64,000 bases of DNA, from contig NZ_QRHA01000002.1 of assembly GCF_003367475.1 (NCBI RefSeq), positions 62,001-126,000 of the forward strand, in the 5' to 3' direction. The position numbers and the translations under genes were made by a program. The stretch is from Alteromonas aestuariivivens. GTDB taxonomy: Bacteria > Pseudomonadota > Gammaproteobacteria > Enterobacterales > Alteromonadaceae. Every line of letters starts with the position of its first letter. The first letter of the stretch is position 1. The notes beneath the pieces were generated by a model. It had not been told where the DNA came from and searched no databases. It saw nothing but the letters and a program-made list of their open reading frames with translations. Below are positions 8,832 to 28,455 of this stretch, piece after piece.

Positions 8832-8883
8832 GTTTTCTCCGAATTCATTCTGTCCAGCGTGAAACTGAAAATTCATTCAATTA

Positions 8884-8898
8884 TGAAAACAGTTTCCT
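8884..8898. promoter_or_regulatory. Candidate LacI-family operator (copy 1)
   Basis: TGAAAAC-A-GTTTCCT, an inverted repeat around one base, 53 bp upstream of the receptor start. It is the same pattern as copies at 9142, 17766, 17624 and 24900. Confidence 0.6.
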
Positions 8899-9141: not shown

Positions 9142-9156
9142 TGAAAACAGTTTACC
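9142..9156. promoter_or_regulatory. Candidate LacI-family operator (copy 2)
   Basis: TGAAAAC-A-GTTTACC, the exact reverse-complement class of the site at 17766 (GGTAAAC-C-GTTTTCA). It lies about 180 bp before the sulfatase start. Confidence 0.6.
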
Positions 9157-9336
9157 TTTTCTGTGGCCGTGAAGGCGCTATCTTAATACGCACAATCGCA
9201 CTGGCAGTCAGAGCCTTGGGTGTTGGTAATGTTTACTGATGTTAGTGAGCGCAAATCATCGAATCGAATCGGGGTATCTCGGCGTATTTCTGCCCGGGTG
9301 CAGTAACTATCTGAAACAATCAACTGGGTGCAGGGA

Positions 9337-10761
9337 ATGAAAATTACAGTCAATCTGGTGTGTCTAATTGCGGGGTTGGTTTTTTGCGGGCAAGGCAAAG
9401 CACAAAACTTACCCAATGTGCTGGTATTCATCGCCGATGATTTAGGGTATCTGGACACCGAAATAGCAGGCTCACCCGATGCAATTACGCCGAATGTTCG
9501 TTTGCTGGCAAACCAAGGATTGGTATTCGAACGGGCTTATGTGAACAGCCCTAGTTGTGCACCCAGCCGGGCGGCGCTGTTTACAGGCCTTAGGTCACAG
9601 CGCAACGGCGTAGAGGAAAACCACGACATTACCCGATTTGACGGTGTTAACCATATATTGACGGGATTTCAAAGTAAAGGTTATGAGATTGCAGCGTTTG
9701 GCAAAATTCGACACGGCAAACTTGATGGCCCCGACCAATGGGACCATGGCATTGAACACTATGGTAAAACTGATTTCGATGTGGCGGAGTTGGAGGAGTA
9801 TCTGGCAAGTCGGGATGCCAGTCGGCCCTTGCTATTGATGGTGGGCTCCCGGCCGCCACATGTACCCTGGCCACCACACAGCAGTTTCGAACCAGCGAAA
9901 ATCAGTCTTCCGGTTAAATCCATAGATACGCCCCGAACCCGGGAAATTCGTAGCCGTTATTTGCAGGATGTGAAAAATATGGACGACCAGTTCGGTCAGG
10001 CGCTTGCGGCTTTTGAACACCACAGTGAAGGTGATGAAATAGTATTGTTCACATCTGATCATGGTGCCCAGTGGCCCTTTGCAAAATGGAACCTATATGA
10101 AACCGGAACCCGGGTACCAATGATAGTTAAGTGGCAGGGCAAAGTTCCCGCTGGGCAAAGTACTCAGGCGCTGGTGAGCTGGATTGATATATTCCCCACG
10201 CTCACAGAATTGGTCGGTGGTGGCCTGGAGAACAATATTGACGGCCGCAGTTTTGCTGACGTGCTATTGAATGGCAAGCCCCAGCATCGCTCGCAGGTAT
10301 TCACCACTCACACCGGCGACGGCAATGGTAAAAAGGCGCACAACTCCTATCCCATGCGTGCAGTGGTCACAGAGAGATTTAAATACATACGAAACCTGCA
10401 TCCTGAATATGTCTTCAGCACACACACGGTAAAAAATGTATTTTTGGATCACAACAGCTACTGGCCGGATTGGACACAAAAGGCACAAAGCAGCGCTACT
10501 GCAGCCAGCATTGTAAAAGCGTATCTATCCCGTCCTGCTGAGGAACTGTATGACTTGGTCACCGATCCCTATGAACAACATAACCTGGCAATGGAGCCTG
10601 ACTATACCCGGGTCCTGTTAACCCTGAGGGGGGAGATTGATAACCTGATGCAGGCGAGTCAGGATACCGGGCGGGTTGCCGGCAATCCTATCAGATTGGT
10701 GGATTGCTGGAGAGATGGCTGCCAGTTGACTCAAACAAAGCCAAACGAGGCAAATGACTGA
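9337..10761 (+). CDS. Exported sulfatase (S1 formylglycine type, S1_8-like)
   Basis: Type I sulfatase expected to remove sulfate esters from a sugar in the periplasm. Reading from ATG 9337 gives 474 aa with a signal peptide (MKITVNLVCLIAGLVFCGQGKA); a GTG at 9328 is possible but has no better ribosome site. The active-site motif C-A-P-S-R is at residues 74-78, where the Cys becomes formylglycine. Metal ligands sit in 'FIADDLGY', and 'SDHGAQWP' supplies the later Asp-His. The C-terminus shows 'MRAVVTERFKYIRNLHPE' and 'YDLVTDPYEQHNLA'. This resembles the SGSH/S1_8 group, but the subfamily is my reading, not a search result. It runs divergently from receptor 1. Confidence 0.88.
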   Translation: MKITVNLVCLIAGLVFCGQGKAQNLPNVLVFIADDLGYLDTEIAGSPDAITPNVRLLANQGLVFERAYVNSPSCAPSRAALFTGLRSQRNGVEENHDITRFDGVNHILTGFQSKGYEIAAFGKIRHGKLDGPDQWDHGIEHYGKTDFDVAELEEYLASRDASRPLLLMVGSRPPHVPWPPHSSFEPAKISLPVKSIDTPRTREIRSRYLQDVKNMDDQFGQALAAFEHHSEGDEIVLFTSDHGAQWPFAKWNLYETGTRVPMIVKWQGKVPAGQSTQALVSWIDIFPTLTELVGGGLENNIDGRSFADVLLNGKPQHRSQVFTTHTGDGNGKKAHNSYPMRAVVTERFKYIRNLHPEYVFSTHTVKNVFLDHNSYWPDWTQKAQSSATAASIVKAYLSRPAEELYDLVTDPYEQHNLAMEPDYTRVLLTLRGEIDNLMQASQDTGRVAGNPIRLVDCWRDGCQLTQTKPNEAND

Positions 10762-10825: not shown

Positions 10826-11965
10826 TTACTCTAATACGGAAAAACGGTACTCAATAAGGTTACGGTAGGTTTGACCGGGCTGCAGAATTGTAGATGGAAA
10901 CTCAGTTTGATTTGGCGAGTCGGGAAAGTGCTGAGGTTCCAGGACAAGGGCGGTGCGATAATCATAACTGCGACCACCTTTGCCCTGAATTGTACCATTC
11001 AGGAAATTGCCGGAATAAAACTGAATACCGGGCTGATCTGACCATATCTCCATTACCCGGCCTGAGCCTGGCTCCACAACCCGAGCGGACAATGCCAGTT
11101 CACCATAAGCTTTATCGAGCACCCAGTTATGATCATAGCCCTTGCCATACTCTAATTGGATATTTGACTCGTTAATGTCAGTACAAACGGGTTTTCCATT
11201 CTGAAAATCAAAAGGTGTGTCGCTGACAGGCTGATTTTCCCCCAGTGGAATGGCGGTGGAATCTACCGGGGTATAGTTGCTGGCGGGAAAGGTGATAACG
11301 TGGTCACAAATTGATCCGCTACCGGCCAGATTGTAGTAAGCATGTTGGGTAAGGTTAATCGGTGTTGGCTGGTCGGTTAGTGCTTCAAAGGTCAGGGTCA
11401 GACGATTGTCTTCATGCAGCGCATAAGTAGCCGTGACAGCAACATTGCCCGGATAGCCTTCTTCTCCATCGTGGCTTAGGCGAAACAATTTCACGCCTAC
11501 TGCACTGTCGGTGGTAAAAGGTGAAGCCTGCCACACTTGCTTGCCAAAACCTTTGACCCCTCCGTGAAGATGGTTAGTTTTGTTGTTAGTTGCCAGTTGG
11601 TAAGATTTGCCGTCCAGCGTGAATTGCCCTTTAGCAATACGGTTGCCGAACCGGCCTATCAGTGCGCCCTGAAAACTTTTGTCCTGCTCATAGCCGGCCA
11701 GCGTGTCATAACCTAAGACGATATCTTTCATCTGGCCGTTTTTGTCTGGCGTAAACAGATTCACCAGAATACCACCGAAATTGGTGATATTAGCCTTGAG
11801 TCCGTTGCTGTTTTCCAGTGTAAACAGGGTGATAGGAGTGCCATTGCTCAGGGCGCCGAAAGGCTCGGAGGACACCTGCAGCGCATGATTGTCGGCGAGC
11901 ACATGGTTGCTGCTTGCGGCAAGCACAATAGCCAGGCCACAAGCCAGATAGGTCTTGTTGTACAT
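10826..11965 (-). CDS. Exported aldose 1-epimerase (galactose mutarotase)
   Basis: Interconverts alpha and beta anomers of galactose or glucose. The 379-aa product is GalM-like: 'GRFGNRIAKGQFTLDGKSY', 'NHLHGGVKGFG', 'LTQHAYYNLAGSG' with the catalytic His, and 'LVLEPQHFPDSPNQTEFP' with the catalytic Glu region. Unlike E. coli GalM it starts with a signal peptide (residues 1-24, ending 'SNHVLA'), so it should act in the periplasm, where oligosaccharides are hydrolysed. The start is ATG 11965 after AGGAGC, 2 bp beyond the stop of the upstream sulfatase. It is the last gene of the minus-strand operon from 17594. Confidence 0.93.
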   Translation of the reverse strand: MYNKTYLACGLAIVLAASSNHVLADNHALQVSSEPFGALSNGTPITLFTLENSNGLKANITNFGGILVNLFTPDKNGQMKDIVLGYDTLAGYEQDKSFQGALIGRFGNRIAKGQFTLDGKSYQLATNNKTNHLHGGVKGFGKQVWQASPFTTDSAVGVKLFRLSHDGEEGYPGNVAVTATYALHEDNRLTLTFEALTDQPTPINLTQHAYYNLAGSGSICDHVITFPASNYTPVDSTAIPLGENQPVSDTPFDFQNGKPVCTDINESNIQLEYGKGYDHNWVLDKAYGELALSARVVEPGSGRVMEIWSDQPGIQFYSGNFLNGTIQGKGGRSYDYRTALVLEPQHFPDSPNQTEFPSTILQPGQTYRNLIEYRFSVLE

Positions 11966-11967
11966 TG

Positions 11968-13662
11968 TTAATGCTCCTGATTGGTTGGGTTGCCGGATGG
12001 CCGGTGATCATAGCGGCGCTGCTTTTCTTCCCAGAAGCCCCCTGAATCTGGCCGCGCAGGGCCAATCCACTGGTCCACCAAATCCCGTTGAAACCACTTT
12101 TCGTACTGCAGGATCATGGATTGGGCTATTTGGGGATAATCAGCAAATAAATCCTCGGTTTCCGTGCGGTCCTGCGTCATATCAAACAGTTGCCAGGGGC
12201 CCTGTAAACGGGACACCAGTTTCCACTTGTCGCTTCGAACTGCCCTGTTGCCTTCATGCTCGAAGAAAATCGGTTCATTGCGGCTCAACGATTTTCCCTG
12301 AAATAACGGTGTCAGAGGGACGCCATTCATCGGCAGAATTTCCGTATTACGGTATATCGTCGGGTAGTGGGCGCCACTGATATCGACGAGGGTGGGTAAG
12401 ATGTCTACCACATGGGCCGGAGTCGTCTCAAAACCTTTGTTTTGCGGTTTTTCTATTCCGGCAGGCCAGTGGGCGATAAGTGGTGTGGCGATCCCGCCTT
12501 CATGGGTGTAATGCTTGTATAACTGAAAAGGCGTATTGCTCAGGGATGCCCAGCTCTGACCCATAACCAACCGTGAGTCCGGACCGCCCAGAGGGTTCCC
12601 CGCGGCGACACCATTTGGCCCGCTCTCTGCGGAAGGGCCGTTGTCAGACATAAACAGGATCAGAGTATTGTCCAGGAGGCCCTGCTCCTCAAGATAATGG
12701 GTTAATCTGCCGACACTGGAATCGATGTGTTCGATAGAAGCGGCGTACACTGCCATCATATGATCGAAGCGCTCTTTGTCTTGCTGGCTCAGTGAATCCC
12801 ATTCTGGAACGTCTGGTGATATTTCAGTCAGTGGCCAGCTTTTATCAATTAATCCCAGTTCGATTTGACGCTGATATCGTGCTTCTCGCAGCTTCGACCA
12901 ACCCGCCATAAATTTTCCACGGTACTTTTCGATGGTTTCTTGTGGCGCCATGACCGGAAAGTGAGGGGCTACATGGGCCAGATATAAGAAGAATGGTTGT
13001 TGGCTTTGCCGGGCCTGCTGGATAAAGCGAATACCCCAGTCGGTCCACAGATCTGTACCGTACCAGTTGTCACCCAGGCGGGGATCGGAAATCGCCATTT
13101 TCTCGCCGTTCAGGTAGATTTTCGACGGCCCCTTTAGCCGTTTATTGAAGGGCGGCTGGTCAGGGAAATACACCCCTCCGGCGGGCAATACCAGCGAAGC
13201 CTGAAAACCGCGTTCCTGGGGCGGAGTGCGATCAAAACCCAAATGCCATTTACCGGTCATGGCGGTAAAATACCCAGCTTCTGACAACACGTCTGCGGCT
13301 GTCACGGCCCGTTCGTGTAAATAACTGAGTGTCCCTCTGGCACCCTCAGGTGCGTAACCGGATAAATACCCCATACCGGCTTTGTGCGGGTACATGCCGG
13401 TGAGCAACGAAGCCCGGGTCGTACTGCATCGCGCGGTATTATAGAACTGACTGAACTTCAGACCGTGATTGGCCAGAGAATCTAGATTGGGAGTAGGCAC
13501 TTCGCCGCCATAACTGCTGAGATCGGAAAAACCCAAATCGTCAGCCAGGATCACGATGATGTTGGGGCGGGCAGCGGGATTGTTCGCACCCCCAAAGACC
13601 GGAAATCCGATAAAAGCACCCACTACAGCAAGCAAAATCAGGAACGTCGGTTTGCTGTTCAT
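11968..13662 (-). CDS. Exported sulfatase (S1_4-like arylsulfatase A type)
   Basis: Type I sulfatase, 564 aa, with a signal peptide ending 'FPVFGGA'. The formylglycine site is C-S-T-T-R at residues 79-83, with Thr in place of the usual Pro/Ala. Other motifs are 'VILADDLGFSDL', 'GKWHLG', 'MSDNGPSAESGPNG' and 'YTHEGGIATPLIAHWPAGI', as in the S1_4 group. S1_4 members studied elsewhere include galactose-3-sulfatases, which would suit this locus; that link is inference. The start at 13662 overlaps the stop of the upstream glycosidase by four bases (ATGA) and follows AAGGAA, so translation is likely coupled. Confidence 0.9.
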   Translation of the reverse strand: MNSKPTFLILLAVVGAFIGFPVFGGANNPAARPNIIVILADDLGFSDLSSYGGEVPTPNLDSLANHGLKFSQFYNTARCSTTRASLLTGMYPHKAGMGYLSGYAPEGARGTLSYLHERAVTAADVLSEAGYFTAMTGKWHLGFDRTPPQERGFQASLVLPAGGVYFPDQPPFNKRLKGPSKIYLNGEKMAISDPRLGDNWYGTDLWTDWGIRFIQQARQSQQPFFLYLAHVAPHFPVMAPQETIEKYRGKFMAGWSKLREARYQRQIELGLIDKSWPLTEISPDVPEWDSLSQQDKERFDHMMAVYAASIEHIDSSVGRLTHYLEEQGLLDNTLILFMSDNGPSAESGPNGVAAGNPLGGPDSRLVMGQSWASLSNTPFQLYKHYTHEGGIATPLIAHWPAGIEKPQNKGFETTPAHVVDILPTLVDISGAHYPTIYRNTEILPMNGVPLTPLFQGKSLSRNEPIFFEHEGNRAVRSDKWKLVSRLQGPWQLFDMTQDRTETEDLFADYPQIAQSMILQYEKWFQRDLVDQWIGPARPDSGGFWEEKQRRYDHRPSGNPTNQEH

Positions 13663-14801
13663 GGTTGTGTTCCTTTCGAGGAGGTTTGGACCTGATAGTC
13701 AATGTAATCCTGCATAAACTGATAGTGGAAGGGCGGCAGGCCATCCTGCCATTGCACGGTCTGGTTGCTGTAGAGGGAATTTAAAATCCATGGGTCCCGA
13801 TTGTCGGTGAACGGTCGCTTACCGTAAGTCTGGTAAAAGCCGTAGGTGGCTCCGGCAAATTGTGGGTAACTACCAAATCTCGTCATTGCGTCGCGAATAT
13901 AGTGCTTGCGGGTTTCAAACCAGGGACTGGCGCTTAAAAATGCCACCCACTCCTCGCGCGCCACCGGCTGGTGGTTGACTACCTGATCCAGGTATTGATA
14001 AACCTGCCAGCTTTCTGGCCTTTGGTAATGTTGGGCAAAGTCGGCGGGTACGGGCTGTTTCAGCGATGCCCGCCAGTGATGCATGAGTGAAAATTCAGTG
14101 GCGATAAAGTGCTGCCCGGGGCGCAATCGGGCCAAAGCATAATCGATCATGGTGGTAAATTGTTCATCACTGGCATGATGGATATGCAGGTCTACTCCGG
14201 CTATCCACGGTAAGGATTTGGCCAGCGCGAGCAGAGGGGCGGAATCAGTCTGCATACCGCCTTCCCACAGGCGGTTAAACGCACCAAGATATAGTGGTTG
14301 TTGATAGCCGTTGGCTAATTGATACTGGTGGATTCGCTCAGCAACCTGCTTGTAAAACCTGACCAAGGGCTGTTGGCGCAGAGATTTTTCAGTTTCAATA
14401 AACGGTTCGTTGCCCGCCACAACGATGTCAGCATAGGGCATAAGTGCATCGAGCAGGGTTGGCAGGAAGTTTAATTCCTGATCGATATCAGCCTGTGTGA
14501 TAGGGAAGGGCCGGTTTTGATAATTAAACTTCAGGCTTAGTACCGTATTCAGGCCCATTTTTTTAAGCTTCTGAAAACCCATTACTCGAGGGTCTGTGTT
14601 TAAGTCGCGGGAGCCTTGCTGGTAATGATGGTAGACGATAAAGCCCCGGGCCCAGGAACTTTGGCTTCGTTTCAGGTCGCTCAGGTTGACCCGTTCCAGG
14701 CTTTCGTTGTAATTGGCGCCCAGAAAGGGCTCGGCTTGAATTGCCAGACTCTGCGGTCCCCACAAGAGAGCGCAGAGCATGAGAAGCATGCTCTGTTTCA
14801 T
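13659..14801 (-). CDS. Exported putative glycosidase, unassigned clan-A-like family (paralogue C)
   Basis: A 380-aa exported protein (signal peptide ending 'GPQSLAIQA') that I cannot assign to a numbered glycoside hydrolase family. It shares an ordered motif set with the products at 17948 and 19178: 'VVAGNEPFIET', 'WIAGVDLHIHH' and 'ATEFSLM'. An N-E-P before the end of one strand and a T-E-F about 105 residues later is the pattern of acid/base and nucleophile glutamates in retaining clan GH-A TIM barrels. It is clearly the most divergent of the three. Neighbours are a GH43-like protein 16 bp upstream and an overlapping sulfatase downstream, supporting a role in cleaving the same polysaccharide. 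Confidence 0.75.
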   Translation of the reverse strand: MKQSMLLMLCALLWGPQSLAIQAEPFLGANYNESLERVNLSDLKRSQSSWARGFIVYHHYQQGSRDLNTDPRVMGFQKLKKMGLNTVLSLKFNYQNRPFPITQADIDQELNFLPTLLDALMPYADIVVAGNEPFIETEKSLRQQPLVRFYKQVAERIHQYQLANGYQQPLYLGAFNRLWEGGMQTDSAPLLALAKSLPWIAGVDLHIHHASDEQFTTMIDYALARLRPGQHFIATEFSLMHHWRASLKQPVPADFAQHYQRPESWQVYQYLDQVVNHQPVAREEWVAFLSASPWFETRKHYIRDAMTRFGSYPQFAGATYGFYQTYGKRPFTDNRDPWILNSLYSNQTVQWQDGLPPFHYQFMQDYIDYQVQTSSKGTQP

Positions 14802-14817
14802 AATGATGACCCTTTGG

Positions 14818-15990
14818 TTAATCCAGCTTTCGGGAAAAGTCGGGAAAGAATTGGTCGCCTTCCATTTTCATTGGAATAATGGCCGGGCGTGTCAGGAACT
14901 TACGTTCCAGCAAGTCGCCTCTGGGATTACCAAACATGGTGGCCCACCAGTTGCCTTGCTTGTCCATGAAAAAATTATTGTGGCCGGCACCAATAACCGA
15001 TGTATAGCGGTCACTGTATGGGCCGTAGATATTGTCGGCGGTGGCGATGACAACGTCATAGCTGTAGCGATTGGCTGCCCAGTCTTTGCGGTCCGGATAC
15101 ACTCGAGTAGGATCATTGGGCTCACCGGGATCATAGGCAAAGCTGCCGTCGGGCATCCGGAAGCTCCAGATTGCCTGAACCAGGTGATACTTTTGGTTGG
15201 CTTTAAATATGTAAGCCCCTTCGATATAAGGTTTGCGGCTGTACTCCTGTTCATCAAGAGTACGCATGGGTTCGGCCAAGCCACTCATATCGTCCTTCAT
15301 GCGGGCAATTTCATGGTTATGGCCGACAAAATACACCGTACCATCGTCGTCTTCGAACAGGCTGCCGTCAATTCTTGGGAACAGCGGGCCATCGCTGTTT
15401 GCAGCAATGTTCTCGTAGGGCCCGGCGGCTTCACCGGTGGTACTGCGCAGAACAAAGCTGCCATTACCATGGGGATTGGCGGGAATGGAGGCGACAATAA
15501 AATAATTTTTCTGACTTTTCAGGTAGTGGATTTCCGGAGCCCACAGAGTCCGTCGTTGGTTGCTGATGGGATTGTTATTGAGATCAACTGTGCGATTATC
15601 ATTTGCAGAATAAAAGTCCTTTTGCCAGGTAGCGTGCTTGTCGAAATCCCAAACCACGCCCATGGATTCCCAATTTTTCAGGTCTTTCGAGCGCCACAAT
15701 TTTATTCCGGGGCTTCTGTCATAGGCGGTGATCTTTCCTGGCATTCCCACTGTGCCTGTCAGGTAGTAAAAACCATCGTTGCCAAGGTTTACATAGGTAT
15801 CCCTTAACCAGTGATCGAAAAGAGGCTCGACACTATCCGGGATCTGAAGTTTCGGATCCTGCACATTGATTTCACCGTAACGGCTTACCTGCTGCAAAGA
15901 TGGGGGCTGAGTGTCGTCTTTCGAAGCCTGACAGGCACTTACGATCGCCGCCATCCCCAGTATTGCCATACCACTTAAAATTTTATTCAT
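14818..15990 (-). CDS. GH43-like glycosidase lipoprotein
   Basis: Five-bladed beta-propeller glycosidase, 390 aa, expected to release terminal arabinose, xylose or galactose-type residues. A lipobox 'IVSAC' near residue 20 predicts a lipoprotein. The three GH43 carboxylates can be placed in 'WLRDTYVNLGNDGFYYLTGT' (general base), 'RIDGSLFEDDDG' (pKa modulator) and 'YIEGAYIFK' (general acid). The start at 15990 follows GGAGGG. It lies 14 bp after the S1_15-like sulfatase and 16 bp before paralogue C, so it is within one operon. The exact GH43 subfamily and substrate are not determined. Confidence 0.85.
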   Translation of the reverse strand: MNKILSGMAILGMAAIVSACQASKDDTQPPSLQQVSRYGEINVQDPKLQIPDSVEPLFDHWLRDTYVNLGNDGFYYLTGTVGMPGKITAYDRSPGIKLWRSKDLKNWESMGVVWDFDKHATWQKDFYSANDNRTVDLNNNPISNQRRTLWAPEIHYLKSQKNYFIVASIPANPHGNGSFVLRSTTGEAAGPYENIAANSDGPLFPRIDGSLFEDDDGTVYFVGHNHEIARMKDDMSGLAEPMRTLDEQEYSRKPYIEGAYIFKANQKYHLVQAIWSFRMPDGSFAYDPGEPNDPTRVYPDRKDWAANRYSYDVVIATADNIYGPYSDRYTSVIGAGHNNFFMDKQGNWWATMFGNPRGDLLERKFLTRPAIIPMKMEGDQFFPDFSRKLD

Positions 15991-16004
15991 TTTGATATGC
16001 CCTC

Positions 16005-17594
16005 CTATTGTTCTGATTCGCGCTCGGTACGCTGCTTAATTGCTTCCAAGCGGGCAGCCATCTGCCGGGTTCTTTCCGGATGCGCATCCGCTAGGTTATG
16101 CTGTTCTTTTAAGTCTTCGTCCAAGTTGTAAAGCAGAGGCTCTGAGCCTATTCCTGTGCGAACTTCCTTATTGGCTAACCAGTCAGGAAGATCACCGGAA
16201 AACGGGGCAATGTATTTCCAGTTTCCCTGACGAAGTCCAATAGCAAAGGCCTCTTCCAACATTTCCTCGCGGCCGTCGGCAGTGGCATCCATCAGAGCGG
16301 GTAAAATATTCTCGCTGTCGATGGCTTCCGTATTCGCCAACGGGTATCCCACCATTTTGGCCAAAGACGCATAAAAATCGATGTGTGAGATTAGTGCGTC
16401 ACTTTCTCCGGTGCGTTTTTGCCCCGCATAATAGGTGATCATGGGAACCCGGGTACCGCCCTCATGGACACTGTATTTACCCCCTGAAAAAGGTCCGGCG
16501 GGCTGGTGGTCACCGATGCGTTCCACTGCCTGATCAGCATAACCATCGTCCAGAACCGGCCCGTTGTCGCTGGAGAAAATGATTAGGGTATTGTCCATTA
16601 AACCGCGCTTTTCCAGTGCATCTATGATTCTGCCAGTCATCCAGTCCATCTGAACAATGGCGTCTCCCCGTGGGCCCATATCCGTGGCACCCTGGAATCT
16701 CTCATTGGGGACCCGGGGAACATGAATATCATTAAAGGGGAAAAACAGCATAAAAGGCGCAGACTGATTTTCATCGATAAAGCTGATGGCTTTGTCTGTC
16801 ATAACTATCGGAAAATCCTCGTCCCGCCATTCCGCATCCTTACCACCACGCATCCACCCGATTCGGCTGATGCCGTTGATGATACTGCCGCTGTGCTGCA
16901 GGTCAGCCTGCTGTTTAAGTAGCTCTGGATGCTCAGTACCCAGAGGGCGGTCGCTAATATTCGTCTCATAGCTCACTTCAATCGGATCATTGGGATCCAG
17001 GCCCACGATGTGATGGTTTTCAAGATAGGCTGTCGGAACCCGATCTCCCGTGGCGGGAATAAGAAAGCTGTAATCAAAGCCAATCTCCAATGGGCCAGGC
17101 TTTACCGCCTGGTTCCAGTCAACTTCGCCGCGTCCCAAGCCAAGGTGCCATTTTCCTACCACGGCTGTAGTGTAACCCACTTGTTGTAACATTTTGGGCA
17201 GGGTAGGGCGCTCGGGGTCAATGATCAGAGGTGCATCGCCGGGCAATATTGCTGCGTTATTCCGAAAGGCAAATTCACCGGTCAGCAGAGAATAGCGGGA
17301 CGGCGTGCAGGTTGCCGCAGGGCTGTGCGCATCGGTATAACGAATGCCGTGTGCTGACAGGGCATCAATATTGGGGGTTGTTACAGCGGTTGCTCCATAG
17401 GCACTCAAATCGCCATAGCCCAAATCGTCGGCGTAGAAAATAATGATATTGGGTTTAAGTGCTTCTGCGGCAGTATCTGAAAGCTCCGCACTGGGTTTGG
17501 TTTCCTGAATATCTGGTGAAGTGCATCCCCAAAGAGAAATCAGAAGAGTGGTGGCCATCGCGCATGCCTGCGGTGATTTCCTGTTTAAGCCCAT
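16005..17594 (-). CDS. Sulfatase lipoprotein (S1_15-like)
   Basis: Type I sulfatase, 529 aa from ATG 17594 (MGLNRKSPQA), which has an AGGAAT ribosome site; the reading to 17639 would run through a candidate operator. A lipobox-like 'LWGC' (Cys 24) suggests a membrane-anchored protein, although Trp at -2 is unusual. The formylglycine site C-T-P-S-R is at 96-100, followed by 'YSLLTGEFAFRN'. Further motifs are 'YADDLGYGDLSAYG', 'GKWHLGLG', 'SSDNGPVLDDG' and 'KYSVHEGGTRVP'. This resembles S1_15, whose characterised members include 6-O-sulfatases on Gal/GalNAc. It is the first gene of a five-gene operon running to galM. Confidence 0.88.
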   Translation of the reverse strand: MGLNRKSPQACAMATTLLISLWGCTSPDIQETKPSAELSDTAAEALKPNIIIFYADDLGYGDLSAYGATAVTTPNIDALSAHGIRYTDAHSPAATCTPSRYSLLTGEFAFRNNAAILPGDAPLIIDPERPTLPKMLQQVGYTTAVVGKWHLGLGRGEVDWNQAVKPGPLEIGFDYSFLIPATGDRVPTAYLENHHIVGLDPNDPIEVSYETNISDRPLGTEHPELLKQQADLQHSGSIINGISRIGWMRGGKDAEWRDEDFPIVMTDKAISFIDENQSAPFMLFFPFNDIHVPRVPNERFQGATDMGPRGDAIVQMDWMTGRIIDALEKRGLMDNTLIIFSSDNGPVLDDGYADQAVERIGDHQPAGPFSGGKYSVHEGGTRVPMITYYAGQKRTGESDALISHIDFYASLAKMVGYPLANTEAIDSENILPALMDATADGREEMLEEAFAIGLRQGNWKYIAPFSGDLPDWLANKEVRTGIGSEPLLYNLDEDLKEQHNLADAHPERTRQMAARLEAIKQRTERESEQ

Positions 17595-17623
17595 AAGTAT
17601 TCCTGTTTTCAAATTACTCGGTA

Positions 17624-17638
17624 AGGTAACTGTTTGCA
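17624..17638. promoter_or_regulatory. Candidate LacI-family operator (copy 3, weaker)
   Basis: AGGTAAC-T-GTTTGCA, matching the PUL operator pattern imperfectly, 30 bp upstream of the S1_15-like sulfatase start. Confidence 0.4.
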
Positions 17639-17765
17639 TTTTCTTTGATTGAACATCTGTAGAAATCTAAGGTCTAACTATTCTTCTATCCAATTAAGCG
17701 CTTTTTAACAAAGATTTCCGGTTGTTTTTCACGTGAGGGAACAATTGATTAACATATGATTGTAA

Positions 17766-17780
17766 GGTAAACCGTTTTCA
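17766..17780. promoter_or_regulatory. Candidate LacI-family operator (copy 4)
   Basis: GGTAAAC-C-GTTTTCA, upstream of the sulfatase-GH43-glycosidase-sulfatase-galM operon, about 172 bp before its first start codon and 142 bp from copy 3. Confidence 0.6.
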
Positions 17781-17947
17781 GTTTTAATGCAAGCTTCTCA
17801 TCAGTTCTAGGCTTGGCCGGGCTAACTCTGCGAAGGTCTGTTGGAGGGATGGGGTGAGCCCTCGGGTACAGAGGGAACCTGTACCCTGGCGGGGTTGTCA
17901 CCTGACAATGCTAATAGGAGTACCCGGCTGAGAAACGCTTCAGCCTG

Positions 17948-19084
17948 TTATTGCTTCGGCAGACTCGTAAAATCAGCGCTCCACAAAAAGTTTTTTTCTT
18001 CTCCGGAACAGGTACTGAAACAGAATATCCCGTTGTAGATCCAGGCGTCCGCCTTGATGTTGTAGTTGAGAAAGCGGTTCTGTCTTAATGCAAAAGTTGC
18101 AATCCGGACCGGGTATTGTGGTTGGTGGAAATAATCCCGAAAGACGTTTTTCAGATAATGCTTCTGCGAGTTTGCAAAATCGTGCATGGCGTTAAAGTGG
18201 TGCCAGCGTTGACTGTCTTTTTCACCCTGCAACACCAGTAACTCTTGCCAGATCTGATTGGTGGTTCCCTCAGGGTAATACTTATTGGCGTAGCTGGTGG
18301 CGAGTTGCTGAGCGTTGTGACTCTTGAACCAGCGCATTAGGGAGAATTCAGTGACCAGAATATCCTGGTCAGGACGGATCTGGCTGCTGGCGTAGTCGAG
18401 AACCTCCTGCCACTCTTCGATGTTTTCATGATGAGTGTGCAAATCAATGCCCGCAATCCAACTGCTATTTTTGGCAAACTGCATCAAATCAGTCAAAACC
18501 GTAGTGCGTTCAATGATTTTGTGCAGATTATTGAACGCGCCCATGTAAATATCAAAGTTGTGGCTGTTGTTGGTGCGAAAGTTTTTTATTTCGTTAGCCA
18601 TGCGTTTATACCAGTCCGTCATATCCTGGTCGCGAAAGGGGATATTGGTCTCACGAAAGGGCTCATTGCCGACAACGACAATATCTATGTTTTCCGCGCC
18701 GGCACTGGCCAGCACTTTACGCATAACATCGAAGTCATCCAGTCTGCCCTGGGTATCGGGGCCGGGGAAATCCCGCCCTTTGGTCGCCCATTTAAGGTTG
18801 ATTATTGTTTTGTAGCCCTGGCTGTGTAACGCCTTAAAGTTACTGATGCTGGGATCGTTTTGGATTTCAGCCAGGCTCTTACCGCGGTGCTTGGACATAT
18901 CCACAAACATGCGTACCCACACTGTTCCTGAGCGCGCCAGCATGCCATCGGGAGACAAATCCTCAAGCTGAGTGCCCAGGCCATTAACATTCACGCCGAT
19001 GGCCGTTTTCGCAGAACACAGGGAAACGCCAAAAGCGCCGTAAACCAACATGGCGACACTGACTAAACGAGTTATTGTTTGCAT
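17948..19084 (-). CDS. Exported putative glycosidase, unassigned clan-A-like family (paralogue A)
   Basis: A 378-aa secreted protein with a signal peptide ending around 'SLCSA' (residue 25). It is very similar along its whole length to the neighbouring product at 19178 and more distantly to 13659. Candidate catalytic residues are Glu141 in 'VVVGNEPFRET' and Glu246 in 'LVTEFSLM', with 'WIAGIDLHTHH' between them, as in retaining TIM-barrel glycosidases of clan GH-A. The C-terminus has a 'FCFSTCSGE' Cys pair that paralogue C lacks. I do not recognise a numbered family. It lies 93 bp downstream of paralogue B and is probably cotranscribed with it. Confidence 0.75.
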   Translation of the reverse strand: MQTITRLVSVAMLVYGAFGVSLCSAKTAIGVNVNGLGTQLEDLSPDGMLARSGTVWVRMFVDMSKHRGKSLAEIQNDPSISNFKALHSQGYKTIINLKWATKGRDFPGPDTQGRLDDFDVMRKVLASAGAENIDIVVVGNEPFRETNIPFRDQDMTDWYKRMANEIKNFRTNNSHNFDIYMGAFNNLHKIIERTTVLTDLMQFAKNSSWIAGIDLHTHHENIEEWQEVLDYASSQIRPDQDILVTEFSLMRWFKSHNAQQLATSYANKYYPEGTTNQIWQELLVLQGEKDSQRWHHFNAMHDFANSQKHYLKNVFRDYFHQPQYPVRIATFALRQNRFLNYNIKADAWIYNGIFCFSTCSGEEKNFLWSADFTSLPKQ

Positions 19085-19177
19085 AGTTTTCTCACTTTTT
19101 TGTTAATTGATACCGAACTAAGAGCCCCCGCTGTTGATCAGCTTCAATGGGCTTATTTATAAGGTTTAGGTTTATGC

Positions 19178-20323
19178 CTATTGCTTGGGCAGACCATTGA
19201 AATCTGCCAGCCATTGATATGAGTCGTCTTCACCGGAGCAGGTGCTGAAGCAGAAGAGGCCGTTGTAGATCCAGGCGTCCGAGTTGCTGCTGTAGTTAGG
19301 GAATGGGTTTTGACGTAAGGCAAAGGTGGCAACACGAACCCGGTTAGCAGAGAGGTTAAAGTAGTCCCTGTGTACATTGCGCAGGTAATGTTTACGGCTG
19401 CTCACAAAGCCGTGCATGGCATTAAAGTCGTACCAGCGATTGGTCTCCTGTACATTTTGAAGCTGGACTAATTCTTGCCATACCTTGTTGCTGGTGCCAT
19501 TGGGATAATACTTGCTTTTGTAGCTGTTACTCAGATTGTTGCTATTTTTGCTCTTGTACCACCGCATAAGTGAGAACTCGGTGACGATAATGTCCTGATC
19601 ATTACGGATCTGGTTTTTGGCATAGTTTAAAGTTTCCTGCCACTCTTCAATCATTTCGTGATGCGTGTGAAGATCAATGCCGGCGATCCAGCTTTTATTT
19701 TTGGCGAATTGCATTAGGTCGGCGAGCACGGTTGTGCGCTCTGAAGTTTTATAGACGTTGTTGAAGGAACCCATGTAGATGTCGTAATTGTAGTTATTGT
19801 TGTTACGAAAATTATTGATCTCGCTGGCCATGCGCTCATACCAGTCGGTCATATCCTGGTCGCGGAAGGCGCCGTCTGTTTCACGGAAGGGCTCGTTACC
19901 AACTACTACAATGTCAATATTGGCGGCGCCAGCGCCGATCAGAACTTTTCTCATCACATCAAAATCATCCAATCGACCCTGGGTATTTGGACCAGGAAAA
20001 TCCCGCCCATTGGTGGCCCACTTCAGGTTTAATATGGTCTTGTAACCCTGGCTGTGCAGAGCGTTGAAATTCGAAATGCTCTCGTCGTTGGATATTTCAG
20101 TCTGACTTTTGCCCCTAAGTTTGGACATATCTACAAACATTCGTACCCATACAGTGCCAGATCGCGCCAACATCCCATTGACGGACAAATCTTCCAGTTG
20201 ATCGCCGAGTCCGTTGACATTAACTCCCACTGCTTTGTCTGCGTATGCTGGTACAACGGTTAAAAATGCACCAATTGCTGAGGTGCAAATCAATTTTGCT
20301 AATCGTCGGTGTAATTTTTCCAT
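19178..20323 (-). CDS. Exported putative glycosidase, unassigned clan-A-like family (paralogue B)
   Basis: A 381-aa secreted protein read from ATG 20323 (MEKLHRRLAKLI), chosen because it gives a normal signal peptide ending 'VVPAYA' and a length like paralogue A; the ATG at 20371 has no ribosome site. Its mature sequence parallels paralogue A almost residue for residue, a recent tandem duplication. Candidate catalytic Glu144 ('GNEPFRET') and Glu249 ('VTEFSLM') are conserved, as are 'GIDLHTHH' and the C-terminal 'FCFSTCSGE'. It may be a glycosidase acting on the main chain of the polysaccharide, but no function is demonstrated by sequence alone. Confidence 0.75.
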   Translation of the reverse strand: MEKLHRRLAKLICTSAIGAFLTVVPAYADKAVGVNVNGLGDQLEDLSVNGMLARSGTVWVRMFVDMSKLRGKSQTEISNDESISNFNALHSQGYKTILNLKWATNGRDFPGPNTQGRLDDFDVMRKVLIGAGAANIDIVVVGNEPFRETDGAFRDQDMTDWYERMASEINNFRNNNNYNYDIYMGSFNNVYKTSERTTVLADLMQFAKNKSWIAGIDLHTHHEMIEEWQETLNYAKNQIRNDQDIIVTEFSLMRWYKSKNSNNLSNSYKSKYYPNGTSNKVWQELVQLQNVQETNRWYDFNAMHGFVSSRKHYLRNVHRDYFNLSANRVRVATFALRQNPFPNYSSNSDAWIYNGLFCFSTCSGEDDSYQWLADFNGLPKQ

Positions 20324-20348
20324 TTGTCGTCTCTTTGCCGTTGATTTG

Positions 20349-20369
20349 GTCTGGAATCTGAATCCAGAC
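20349..20369. promoter_or_regulatory. Short perfect inverted repeat upstream of paralogue B
   Basis: GTCTGGA and TCCAGAC flank a 7-base centre, 26 bp before the paralogue B start. It could be an operator half-site pair or an mRNA hairpin. The 15-bp PUL operator pattern is not seen here. Confidence 0.3.
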
Positions 20370-20615
20370 ATTGAAGGAATTGCTCGTTGGTTACGCCCTG
20401 GTACAGCTCAAAGTGTGCATAGTTGCCAAAGCTGCTTTGAGAGGTCTCCAATTTGGATTGGCAGCCCATTCCTAGATAAAGACGACGTAATGTTGTGAAA
20501 CCGACAGGTTGTGTTTAAAAAATGTAAATATTTATTTGTTTAAGTGTGATGTCGGTTTTGGCTCGCTGAAACGTCTGATCAGTAAACTGGTGTTCAGAGC
20601 AAAGTCGAAGGGGGA

Positions 20616-22368: not shown

Positions 22369-23388
22369 CTAAGGGGATCGGAACAGTAGTGGTCGTTTCT
22401 GGTTTGCCTCAATCCGAACCTGTGGACCAGACTGGTCCGTGGTTTGCCAACTGATGGGAGCAAGCCAGGTTTTTCTGGGATGAACCTCTGAGTGGCTGGC
22501 GTGAGCGTGAAAAACGTAGAACCATTGATTGTGTTGATCGCGGTACGCATCGCCGTGCCCCGGGCCGCTTAAGCCAGTGTTGCGGCTATCCAGGATGGGG
22601 TTATTTTCGTAACGCTGCCAAGGACCCAGGGGGGAATCCGCTATGGCATAACCAACCGCGTAGTCCGGGCTTTTAAAGTGATTGGCAGAGTAAAATAAAT
22701 GGTATTTACCCTGGTGTTTAATCACTGTCGGCCCTTCAACCACATTTGCCTTCGGTGCCGATTCGGTGCGTTCCCAGCTACCTGGAAGGGCACTCAAACA
22801 ATGTGTCAGGGTGTCGGGTTTGATATCGTCCATTGCCTCGTTTAGTTGGGCAACAAAGATGTGATTCCCCTTATTCAGACGCACGTGGTAGAGATACGCG
22901 CTGCCGTCATCGTCAAAAAAAACGAAGGGATCTATCTGGCGCAAGCCACCGCTCAGTGAGAAGGGGTGCGGTTGTGAAAACGGCCCGGTAGCGCTCAGGC
23001 CTTCTGCGATGGCAATTTGCTCGTTAGCGGTATAAGCAAATTTATACTGATTTTTGTGCCTGAAGAGCTGCGGTGCCCAAAAGCCTTTGTCACCAAAAGC
23101 GTCTGAACCGGCTTTCAGTACATAGCCCGGATCGTGGGTGTCTACCGGTTGCCAGGTCAGGCTGTCGTTGGATTCATAAGCTCTGAATCCAGTTTGCGGT
23201 GGCGGCTCTGTTCCAAACAGGACGTAGCGACCGTCTTCAACAAAAATACTCGGATCGGCCAGCTCAATTTGCTGTGGCGCCGCCATGGCTGACAAGCTCA
23301 GGAATGTGGTGCTGAAAATCATCGCTGCGGCGCGCACGGCCGTGACTGCACTGCAGCGTAGGTGTTGGGATTGACTGTTATGCATCAT
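22369..23388 (-). CDS. GH43-like glycosidase, exported
   Basis: Five-bladed propeller glycosidase, 339 aa, with an N-terminal signal ending 'SLSAMA' near residue 36. The three GH43 carboxylates are visible in 'IELADPSIFVEDGRYVLFGT' (base), 'RQIDPFVFFDDDGSAYLYH' (pKa modulator) and 'NVVEGPTVIKHQGKYHLFYS' (acid). The start codon lies one base after the stop of the upstream GH43 gene, so the two are cotranscribed. Probable role: exo-removal of arabinose, xylose or galactose side residues; the subfamily is not resolved. Confidence 0.88.
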   Translation of the reverse strand: MMHNSQSQHLRCSAVTAVRAAAMIFSTTFLSLSAMAAPQQIELADPSIFVEDGRYVLFGTEPPPQTGFRAYESNDSLTWQPVDTHDPGYVLKAGSDAFGDKGFWAPQLFRHKNQYKFAYTANEQIAIAEGLSATGPFSQPHPFSLSGGLRQIDPFVFFDDDGSAYLYHVRLNKGNHIFVAQLNEAMDDIKPDTLTHCLSALPGSWERTESAPKANVVEGPTVIKHQGKYHLFYSANHFKSPDYAVGYAIADSPLGPWQRYENNPILDSRNTGLSGPGHGDAYRDQHNQWFYVFHAHASHSEVHPRKTWLAPISWQTTDQSGPQVRIEANQKRPLLFRSP

Positions 23389-23389
23389 G

Positions 23390-24568
23390 TTAGGACCCCT
23401 GGATTATGGCCTGGAAATTTTGGGCTTCATCCGGGCCCGGAATGGCATAGTCTGGGTCTTCGGCGCGTATATAGACTTCACCGTCACTCTCAATCTGAAT
23501 TTCCAAAGGCACTATGGTGGTGCCGCTTTGATTGATGGTTTGCGCGGTCTCGCTCAGATCACGATTCTGGATCCCATCGCTGTCCAAAGGGGGAACATTG
23601 GCGTTGAAGAAGGCTGTAACCCACCAATTCCCGTCACGGGTTTGAAAGGGTGTTCCATGGCCAAGAAAGCGACCGACAAATCGTCTTGGACCGTAGGGGC
23701 CATTGATGCTGTCCGCTGTGCTGTAATACAGATTGTATGAGCCTTTGCGCATCCTGTCGGTTGACCATGCCGTACCGAAGTGAACGTACTTACTGCCTAT
23801 TTTCCGGATTGTGGCCCCTTCGTGGCCAATACGGCTGATGGAACTGCCATCGGGCCCAATACGGGAACCCGCAGGATCAATGCGGGTGGCGGGGCCCGTG
23901 TAGTCGCTAAAATCTTCATTCAGGGGTTGTACCAGGGTATTGCCGTAAAGAACATACCAGGTGCCATCATCATCTTTGAAAAGGGATGGATCATGTCGCA
24001 CGCCAAACTTGCCTTGCATGGGGTGTGTCCAGGGGCCTTTAATTTCAATACCAGGTTGCGCGAATGCAAATGAGGCATTGCCCTGTGGGCAATGAACCAG
24101 TGCCCATCGGTCGCCCATCCAGTGGAGCTCTGGGGCCCAAATCCTGTTGCGGTTGTCCTCAGGGCCATTGTCAGACTGACTGTATCTGTCGTCCAGAGTA
24201 AATGGCGTACCCAGATACTCCCAGTCAATTAAGTCAGCACTGCGCCAGACCTGGACCACTTCGCCAACAATGGACTCTTTTCCAAGGCCGATGTTTAAAG
24301 GGTCTGTTTGCTGCCGGGGATCATCAGGGTTGGGTGTGGTGCCGGTAAGATAATACTGATCATCCGGGCCCAGTATGATGTAAGGGTCGCGTATCCAGCC
24401 TGCTTTAACAAACAATGCCTGACTATGAGCTTTCAGGCCGAATTCAATGGACTCGCGACTCATAGGACCTGGCAGTTCATCTGTGTGGCTTATCAACTTT
24501 GATTGCGCCTGGCTGGCATTACATACCAGCAGCAGACATCCTAACGCAAGCGTGTATATGTTCCTCAC
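23390..24568 (-). CDS. GH43-like glycosidase, exported (GTG start)
   Basis: Propeller glycosidase, 392 aa, with a signal peptide ending 'CNASQAQ'. The start is GTG 24568 (MRNIYTLALG), well placed behind GAGGAAG. Catalytic carboxylates of the GH43 pattern are in 'GWIRDPYIILGPDDQYYLTGT', 'RHDPSLFKDDDGTWYVLYG' and 'IGHEGATIRKIG'. Its N-terminal blade resembles that of the 14818 gene more than that of its operon partner at 22369. It is divergent from receptor 2, so both may answer to the same upstream operators. Confidence 0.85.
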   Translation of the reverse strand: MRNIYTLALGCLLLVCNASQAQSKLISHTDELPGPMSRESIEFGLKAHSQALFVKAGWIRDPYIILGPDDQYYLTGTTPNPDDPRQQTDPLNIGLGKESIVGEVVQVWRSADLIDWEYLGTPFTLDDRYSQSDNGPEDNRNRIWAPELHWMGDRWALVHCPQGNASFAFAQPGIEIKGPWTHPMQGKFGVRHDPSLFKDDDGTWYVLYGNTLVQPLNEDFSDYTGPATRIDPAGSRIGPDGSSISRIGHEGATIRKIGSKYVHFGTAWSTDRMRKGSYNLYYSTADSINGPYGPRRFVGRFLGHGTPFQTRDGNWWVTAFFNANVPPLDSDGIQNRDLSETAQTINQSGTTIVPLEIQIESDGEVYIRAEDPDYAIPGPDEAQNFQAIIQGS

Positions 24569-24899: not shown

Positions 24900-24914
24900 A
24901 GGAAACTGTTTTCA
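24900..24914. promoter_or_regulatory. Candidate LacI-family operator (copy 5)
   Basis: AGGAAAC-T-GTTTTCA, the reverse complement of the copy 1 pattern (TGAAAAC-A-GTTTCCT), which exactly mirrors its place upstream of the other receptor gene. Confidence 0.6.
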
Positions 24915-24935
24915 TTATCTGGTGGTAAACCTCTT

Positions 24936-24949
24936 GGGAAACGTTTCTA
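24936..24949. promoter_or_regulatory. CG-centred palindrome before receptor 2
   Basis: GGGAAACGTTTCTA contains a perfect 10-bp palindrome GAAACGTTTC, the CG-centred style typical of LacI/GalR operators. It differs from the 15-bp one-base-spacer sites and may bind a second regulator. Confidence 0.5.
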
Positions 24950-24975
24950 AAACACACGACATACTTGGAGGAAAC

Positions 24976-27910: not shown

Positions 27911-27943
27911 GCCCGGCTCTGCCGGGCATTTGTTTGTATTTTT
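27911..27943 (+). terminator. Rho-independent terminator of receptor 2
   Basis: GCCCGGC-TCT-GCCGGGC (27911-27927) followed by ATTTGTTTGTATTTTT. It is a compact GC-rich hairpin with a T-rich tail, 80 bp after the receptor stop and just before the sulfatase remnant. Confidence 0.85.
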
Positions 27944-27957
27944 ATGAGGGAAAGCAC

Positions 27958-28455
27958 ATGTCTCGCATATTGCGATGTTCTAAGTGGCTGGTAATCTTTA
28001 GCACAGCAGTGTTGATACAGACTTTGGTGGGGTGCACTCAACAAAAATCGATTACTTCTAACCCGCCTAATATCCTGTTTGTTCTGGCAGATGATATGGG
28101 GTACGGAGATCTGAGTGTGACGGGCAATATCTCCGCAAGCACACCGAATATTGACCTGCTGGCCAGAGAGGGTTTGCTGATGGAGAAGTTTTACGTGGCT
28201 TCGCCCATTTGCTCACCTTCCCGGGTTGCCTTTATTACCGGGCATCACCCTTCCGAGTTTAAGATCCATTCCTTTTTGCACAACCGCGCTGCCAATAAAC
28301 AGAGGGATATGGCAGATTATCTGCCTTCGGATCCCTCTGAAACCAATAATCTTATGGTTCAACACAAAGCACTGGCCGCAGAGTTAAGTAGCACACGGCT
28401 GTCCTGGCGCAGTGATTTTTCGTCAAACTTACAAAGGTGCATTGTGCTTGCCTAG
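27958..28455 (+). pseudogene. Sulfatase remnant with an internal in-frame deletion
   Basis: Reading from ATG 27958 (after GAGGGAAAG) gives 165 aa. Residues 1-122 are the N-terminal part of a lipoprotein type I sulfatase: lipobox 'LVGC' (Cys 26), '[12 protein letters not shown]' and formylglycine motif C-S-P-S-R at 85-89. Around nucleotides 28318-28330 it passes without a frameshift into '[19 protein letters not shown]', which is what sulfatases show near their C-terminus. The middle of the fold, normally some 300 residues including 'GKWHLG' and 'SDNG', is missing. It cannot be an active sulfatase, although the reading frame and ribosome site persist. Confidence 0.85.

Follow-up and report, generated by a model that had tools for sequence, protein, structure and literature searches.

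In a 64,000-nucleotide stretch of the Alteromonas aestuariivivens genome (contig NZ_QRHA01000002.1, positions 62,001 to 126,000; hereafter, the window) we found three paralogous genes whose products belong to one probable glycoside hydrolase (GH) family of clan GH-A type that none of the libraries searched names. We consider it probable (about 0.7) that these proteins are exported retaining hydrolases and that they most likely act on a 6-sulfated galactan or arabinogalactan by cutting its beta-galactan chain. The three genes are:

17948..19084, minus strand: newGH-1, 378 amino acids (aa), tandem copy, exported as judged by eye; Asn140-Glu141 and Glu246; first structure model
19178..20371, minus strand: newGH-2, 397 aa, tandem copy, exported as judged by eye; Glu160 and Glu265; alternative start at 20323
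13659..14801, minus strand: newGH-3, 380 aa, diverged paralogue, signal peptide as judged by eye; Asn131-Glu132 and Glu236; second structure model

Homology, predicted fold and active site

An earlier reading of the letters alone (the sequence-only reading) had placed three genes here, and all three open reading frames (ORFs) are indeed open on the minus strand, position 20323 being an inner ATG of a frame that runs to 20371; the database copy of newGH-2 (P0002, 381 aa) fits the inner start. The motifs that it had listed, GNEPF-x-ET, WIAG-x-DLH-x-HH and TEFSLM, occur in the same order in the three translations, and the two glutamates that it had put about 105 residues apart (Glu141 and Glu246 in the 17948 product) are spaced by 104 residues in newGH-3 (132/236) and by 105 in both newGH-1 (141/246) and newGH-2 (160/265). 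With newGH-1, newGH-3 shares 29% identity over 360 columns (E 8e-45) and newGH-2 shares 71% (E 0.0). This similarity, far above chance, confirms that the three are homologous proteins, and their signal sequences look, by eye, like those of periplasmic or secreted ones. The third copy is diverged, as had been described, and sits amid sulfatase genes, with one on either side of the GH43-newGH-3 pair. To call the tandem duplication recent was an overstatement, since newGH-2 matches a Marinimicrobium koreense protein at 73% identity and its neighbour newGH-1 at 71%, and the two tandem copies are joined in the tree with moderate support (SH-aLRT 90). Three family copies were found in the 3.85 Mb host genome, all of them in the window.

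The structure models of newGH-1 and newGH-3 had mean pLDDT (predicted local distance difference test) values of 91.1 and 94.5 and pTM (predicted template modelling) scores of 0.88 and 0.90, and both are eight-stranded (beta/alpha)8 triosephosphate isomerase (TIM) barrels, the fold of clan GH-A. Strand 4 (residues 135-138 in newGH-1, 126-129 in newGH-3) is followed by Asn140-Glu141 and Asn131-Glu132, at the place of the acid/base, and strand 7 (241-248 and 231-238, respectively) holds Glu246 and Glu236, at the place of the nucleophile; the arrangement expected by the sequence-only reading is therefore seen in both of the paralogues that were modelled. An invariant His-x-His lies on strand 6. 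In an alignment of 98 rows (76 of 77 stretches derived from the loci described below, one of <250 residues having been dropped, plus 19 database proteins and the three window proteins), His216, His218, Glu246 and Ser248 (newGH-1 numbering) were invariant in all 98, and so was Asn140-Glu141-Pro142, for which the real test lies in 33 rows, the other 65 having come from a scan with the GNEPF pattern.

When the models were compared with known structures, the top 50 VIA-align rows of both consisted mainly of GH1, GH5-type and GH164 entries, klotho structures included, with Z values from 22.8 to 21.1 for the first model and from 22.2 to 20.2 for the second; we take the glycosidases in the top rows to be clan GH-A members. 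Foldseek likewise ranked GH5 (8d89), GH39 (PslG) and GH35 entries high, and families absent from these lists are not thereby excluded. On the basis of the models we read the family as clan GH-A type retaining beta-glycosidases, and we infer both catalysis and retention. Each exported barrel would cut a beta-glycosidic bond with retention, with Glu141, after Asn140, as the putative acid/base and Glu246 as the putative nucleophile, and Arg58, His216 and His218 are likely active-site residues.

Library searches agree with the earlier claim that no known GH or polysaccharide lyase family matches. At E<=1, Pfam returned only unrelated sub-threshold names for the three window proteins, and NCBIfam did likewise. 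Larger searches used author-chosen member sets that included the window proteins, namely A1 (50 rows) and A2 (56 rows), both from 139 protein ids, and A4 (31 rows), from 164 ids. At E<=0.01 no Pfam GH model matched any of the 31 or 56 members and no NCBIfam GH model any of the 56, and all that these scans gave were secretion tails and single weak names; profiles of the 50 and 31 members found 0 PDB chains at E<=10. In particular, neither PF00150 (GH5) nor PF07745 (GH53) was listed at E<=1 for the window proteins or at E<=0.01 for the 31 and 56 members. A Pfam Brix match (E 0.0021), to the same window protein in both scans (1/31 and 1/56), was below the cut-off and was discarded. A third search used the A1 profile and brought in a sister group with about 23 to 31% identity in the aligned part, whose proteins likewise lacked precomputed Pfam domains. 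With Pfam, NCBIfam and PDB as stand-ins for the CAZy models, which were not among the libraries, these results strongly suggest that the family lies outside the numbered families and make it a good candidate for a new one. The glycosidase reading is thus supported: the two outcomes that had been named as fatal to it, a significant match to an existing family and a fold other than a TIM barrel with the glutamates at strands 4 and 7, did not turn up as far as the checks were run.

Neighbouring genes and the proposed substrate

The minus-strand order is newGH-2, newGH-1, a 308-base gap, sulfatase 16005, GH43 14818, newGH-3, sulfatase 11968 and mutarotase 10826, the five genes from 16005 to 10826 being spaced by 2 to 16 bases or overlapping by 4. 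The neighbouring genes are:

16005..17639, minus strand: S1 sulfatase, nearest to a galactose-6-sulfate 6-O-sulfohydrolase of S1_15A (PDB 9bas, E 2.7e-230); CTPSR at 111
14818..15990, minus strand: GH43 family enzyme (PF04616, E 3.8e-25); shares 44% identity with the GH43 from a Niastella locus
11968..13662, minus strand: S1 sulfatase (best PDB match 7all, E 1e-95); CSTTR at 79; 4-base overlap with newGH-3
10826..11965, minus strand: aldose 1-epimerase/galactose mutarotase (1snz, E 2.9e-83), last gene of the run
9328..10761, plus strand: third S1 sulfatase of the neighbourhood (Pfam)
6174..8876, minus strand: TonB-dependent receptor (TIGR01782)
22369..23388, minus strand: GH43 (3kst, E 5.7e-57)
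23390..24568, minus strand: GH43 (PF04616, E 1.4e-18); shares 58% identity with a GH43 adjoining a newGH gene in Proteiniphilum (L010)
24922..27831, plus strand: TonB-dependent receptor, plug domain (Pfam)

The 16005 product, which also resembles the S1_15B enzyme 9bau (E 5.9e-191) and has the formylglycine motif C-x-P-x-R as CTPSR at residue 111, is a close relative of the S1_15 galactose-6-sulfatases, with a predicted activity of that kind. S1_15 enzymes are reported to remove the 6-sulfate from galacto-configured sugars, including 6-sulfated N-acetylgalactosamine (GalNAc) (PMC10154612), and the S1_15A enzyme in lambda-carrageenan use is a galactose-6-sulfatase solved with galactose-6-sulfate (PMC12549532). 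Farther off in the window are galK, galT and a sodium:solute symporter gene.

It is from this set of partners (the S1_15 relative, the second sulfatase, the GH43 enzymes, the galactose mutarotase and the TonB receptors) that we infer a galactan substrate, and the S1_15 relative together with the mutarotase, galK and galT points to galactose as a product. Since clan GH-A retaining enzymes as a rule cut beta (D-sugar) bonds, a 6-sulfated galactan or arabinogalactan, cut in its beta-galactan chain, would be the most likely substrate. An arabinogalactan would agree with the GH2 and GH51 genes that lie near the family in some loci; carrageenan or porphyran from red algae would leave the soil genera among the carriers unaccounted for.

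An operator-like motif may link parts of this region. The sites are:

17766..17780, minus strand: TGAAAACGGTTTACC, upstream of the sulfatase-GH43-newGH-3 run
9142..9156, plus strand: the same motif with one mismatch, between the TonB receptor and sulfatase 9328
8884..8898, plus strand: TGAAAACAGTTTCCT, three mismatches, just upstream of the TonB receptor at 8876
24900..24914, minus strand: TGAAAACAGTTTCCT, three mismatches, just upstream of TonB receptor 24922

With up to three mismatches TGAAAACGGTTTACC occurs 8 times in the window versus 1.77 expected. The consensus of the four sites, TGAAAACRGTTTMCY, has four exact matches in the genome, all in gaps of this locus (before the sulfatase run, sulfatase 9328 and both TonB receptors), and four more sites with one mismatch; the reversed control pattern has two. 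At up to three mismatches the consensus matches 17 times in the window versus 9.0 expected, many of them inside genes. The sites themselves supplied the consensus, and the shared motif is for that reason only suggestive. Two of the sites are close to the listed receptor starts and may be part of the leader, and the LacI-type regulators of the window are candidates for binding the motif. No further copy of a second motif, TTAAAAAGCGCTTAA, occurs in the window, and promoter and terminator scans gave no more than chance (12 versus 12.5 and 14 versus 12.1).

Some other features of the window and genome were observed. At 27934-28455, adjoining a LacI gene, there is a short, 173-aa S1 sulfatase fragment, matched by PF00884 in positions 1-78 only and with CSPSR at 93, that is perhaps a remnant, and at 38746-40041, beside a galactose-type gene group, a 431-aa protein with no Pfam or PDB sequence match. 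The 3.85 Mb genome has 23 sulfatase matches, with other groups on contigs C1, C23 and C32, and the host may thus handle several sulfated substrates.

Occurrence of the family and its partners

A scan of genome contigs with the GNEPF pattern, which biases the sample in that second copies with GNEPN would be missed, yielded 65 loci: 29 in Actinomycetota, 19 in Bacteroidota, 13 in Pseudomonadota, and two each in Verrucomicrobiota and Armatimonadota. The family was found in 0 of 59 searched relatives of the host (35 of the same genus and 24 of the same order); the locus is therefore patchy and was perhaps acquired sideways. In a quick tree, newGH-1 and newGH-2 grouped with five database proteins, one of them named (Marinimicrobium koreense), and newGH-3 stood in a separate branch with Steroidobacter and Armatimonadota rows.

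Two paralogues were present in 11 of the 65 loci (12 if L034, which looks like one gene in two frames, is counted), and in each the copies fell in different branches of the tree. Gene order, taken from a first ORF-picker set that missed genes in G+C-rich loci (such as the sulfatase directly before the L055 gene), was constant in the two-copy Bacteroidota loci, where the first copy lay directly before SusC and the second directly after GH43 (10/10). In the first copies the hydrophobic stretch is followed by a Cys, as it is in lipoproteins (10/10 by eye, 6/10 by pattern); the signal peptides of the second copies look plain by eye, with 1/10 matching the lipoprotein pattern inside the signal. Judged from these signals, the pair fits a surface enzyme plus a periplasmic one. 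By analogy, part of the family would work on the polymer outside the cell, and the desulfated oligosaccharides would be left to other members in the periplasm. The division into endo- and exo-action that the sequence-only reading had suggested for the three window proteins is conjectural.

In six-frame segments of the loci, S1 sulfatases were found in 29/65, GH43-type enzymes in 29/65 and both in 25/65. By phylum, sulfatases occurred in 15/19 Bacteroidota, 10/13 Pseudomonadota, 4/29 Actinomycetota and 0/4 other loci, some being hidden by short length in the 13 loci of <20 kb. As a control for genome density, 20 of the 65 loci, picked by us across the groups, were compared with their genomes (340 matches in 133 Mb, a lower bound in one genome with 69 of 117 candidates scored): they held 28 sulfatases versus 1.20 expected, and at least one was present in 13/20 loci versus 1.14 expected. 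The count of loci is the fairer figure because sulfatases tend to lie in groups and because loci and genomes were counted with different models, namely a hidden Markov model built from 47 sulfatases found by similarity to those of the window (loci) and PF00884 (genomes).

Among 57 sulfatase stretches, 22 were nearest to the S1_15 relative of the window, and a match to the latter of at least 40% over 350 residues occurred in 17 loci (the L037 sulfatase, 62% over 346 residues, being left out), 16 of which also had GH43 (nine Pseudomonadota, seven Bacteroidota). Loci with the S1_15 relative plus a related GH43 were those of Bacteroidota and Sphingomonadaceae. In the Niastella locus the sulfatase, two genes on from the GH43, is 57% identical to the 16005 product; in sphingomonads the GH43 enzymes are less similar (29 to 34%), and that they are of one type is less sure there. 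GH51-like genes were seen in 4/65 loci and GH2 neighbours in some, as counted in the first ORF-picker set. Neighbour cluster 3 of the first clustering was discarded, since it proved to be a frame antisense to the family gene.

Several loci had features of their own. In Prolixibacteraceae (L011, L015, L016 and L021) the family members are about 690-715 aa long, and the one that was scanned (L016) has a laminin-G-like domain and a type IX secretion system sorting tail. The L033 gene stands alone between a purL-like gene and a GntR-aminotransferase regulator, with no sulfatase found there, and L039 and L051 look like it by gene position. In Sphingomonas sp. DG1-23 (L032) both the locus and the genome count gave four sulfatases, so that the locus may hold all of them. 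Finally, a group of proteins of about 350-370 aa accompanies the family in 8/65 loci (L013, L017, L020, L029, L041 and others); the one member scanned, in L017, has a weak match to the GH2 TIM barrel, and the group may be another poorly described hydrolase.

Alternative readings and known systems

Several results weigh against the galactan-cleaving GH family proposed here. Barrel matches on their own are weak evidence, as the Foldseek top 50 also included endonuclease IV, a chitinase and an O-GlcNAcase for the first model and a tagatose epimerase for the second. The galactan reading rests on partner enzymes, of which the S1_15 type also covers GalNAc-6-sulfate, and no sulfatase was found in 36/65 loci, including all but four of those in Actinomycetota, from which it follows that sulfate is not part of every member's substrate. 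Within the window, the three signal peptides are plain by eye, with no lipoprotein/plain split among the paralogues; no motif match was found in the gap before the tandem pair; and newGH-3, despite its like neighbours, is not orthologous in the tree to the second copy of Bacteroidota. The profile comparisons by hhalign were weak for GH53 (probability 7.6%, E 0.0046) and nil for GH5-type enzymes (0.3%), with shallow comparison sets of five and three sequences that are too few to place the family, so that its place in clan GH-A is argued from fold and residues and not from sequence. The same comparison with the GH5-type sequences tells against another explanation, which we regard as unlikely, that we are dealing with a distant and so far unrecognised branch of a numbered clan GH-A family (GH5, GH39, GH53, GH30 or other), or with a family that already has a CAZy number but no Pfam model or PDB entry. 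The nearest folds listed above would suit such a branch, and so would Arg on strand 2, Asn-Glu on 4, His-x-His on 6 and Glu on 7, which resemble what we take to be the GH5 pattern, and the UniRef names of two proteins (P0010 and P0096), which read cellulase or GH5. Against it stand the lack of any Pfam GH model or PDB sequence in the member searches, and the titles and abstract starts of the open-licence literature, where no paper on the family was found. GH195, considered because it too is paired with a sulfatase, was rejected as this family, its authors placing it near GH99 (PMC13063451).

A different backbone (beta-linked arabinose, mannose, a GlcNAc/GalNAc glycan or a glucan), with galactose-6-sulfate as a side decoration or with the sulfatase acting on GalNAc-6-sulfate, is a possibility that we take seriously while doubting it. 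The beta-mannosidases of GH164 and GH5 type among the good fold matches, the GH51-like genes, the breadth of S1_15 and the scarcity of sulfatases in Actinomycetota would all agree with it, but the window has the galactose mutarotase, galK and galT, Pfam scans of 40 among its 56 ORFs of at least 150 aa showed no arabinose, mannose or hexosamine pathway genes, and the nearest solved relative of the 16005 product was solved with galactose-6-sulfate. That the proteins are non-catalytic TIM barrels with a carbohydrate-binding or biosynthetic role seems very improbable to us: some homologues do lie beside housekeeping genes (cobalamin genes in Amycolatopsis L062, the purL-like gene in L033), but the invariant Glu246, histidines and Ser248, and the Asn-Glu of the 33 unselected rows, look typical of an active site across five phyla.

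We therefore retain the reading of exported retaining hydrolases acting on a beta-galactan chain. A bolder extension, which we offer only as speculation and would rather expect to fail, is that the family, an S1_15 galactose-6-sulfatase and GH43 form a conserved cross-phylum module for a 6-sulfated galactan of land and sea whose breakdown has yet to be described, in which the surface copy would open the polymer and the periplasmic copy would finish the desulfated oligosaccharides. If true, this would mean a new CAZy family with a specificity unlike that of any known one, and a marker of sulfated galactan use in soil and rhizosphere bacteria. The link to relatives of galactose-6-sulfatases in genera such as Niastella, Pedobacter, Arachidicoccus and Sphingomonas, presumably inhabitants of soil and plants, hints at sulfated galactan on land. 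Found in five phyla with what looks like an intact active site of clan GH-A type, and with no model in the libraries searched, the family is a direct target for CAZy discovery.

The clan GH-A enzymes with the nearest folds (GH1, GH5_18, GH164, GH39 PslG and GH35) are 7 to 13% identical to the family, which differs in its lack of profile matches in Pfam, NCBIfam and PDB sequences and in the invariant His-x-His of its strand 6. With the GH53 endo-beta-1,4-galactanases the likeness is a weak path over the whole length that aligns the Asn-Glu of the acid/base, although the nucleophile is two columns off. As to whole systems, the lambda-carrageenan locus of Pseudoalteromonas distincta includes the S1_15A enzyme that is the nearest solved relative of the 16005 product, but its depolymerases are GH150, accompanied by GH110 and GH2 (PMC12549532). 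A sulfatase is pivotal in the use of sulfated arabinogalactan-protein by Bacteroides plebeius, where, however, it belongs to S1_8 and the enzyme studied to GH145 (PMC8406133). Another parallel is the pairing of GH195 with an S1_51 sulfatase on sulfated alpha-mannan, also a new GH family with a sulfatase in a marine locus, whereas GH195 is described by its authors as distantly related to the GH99 alpha-mannanases (PMC13063451).

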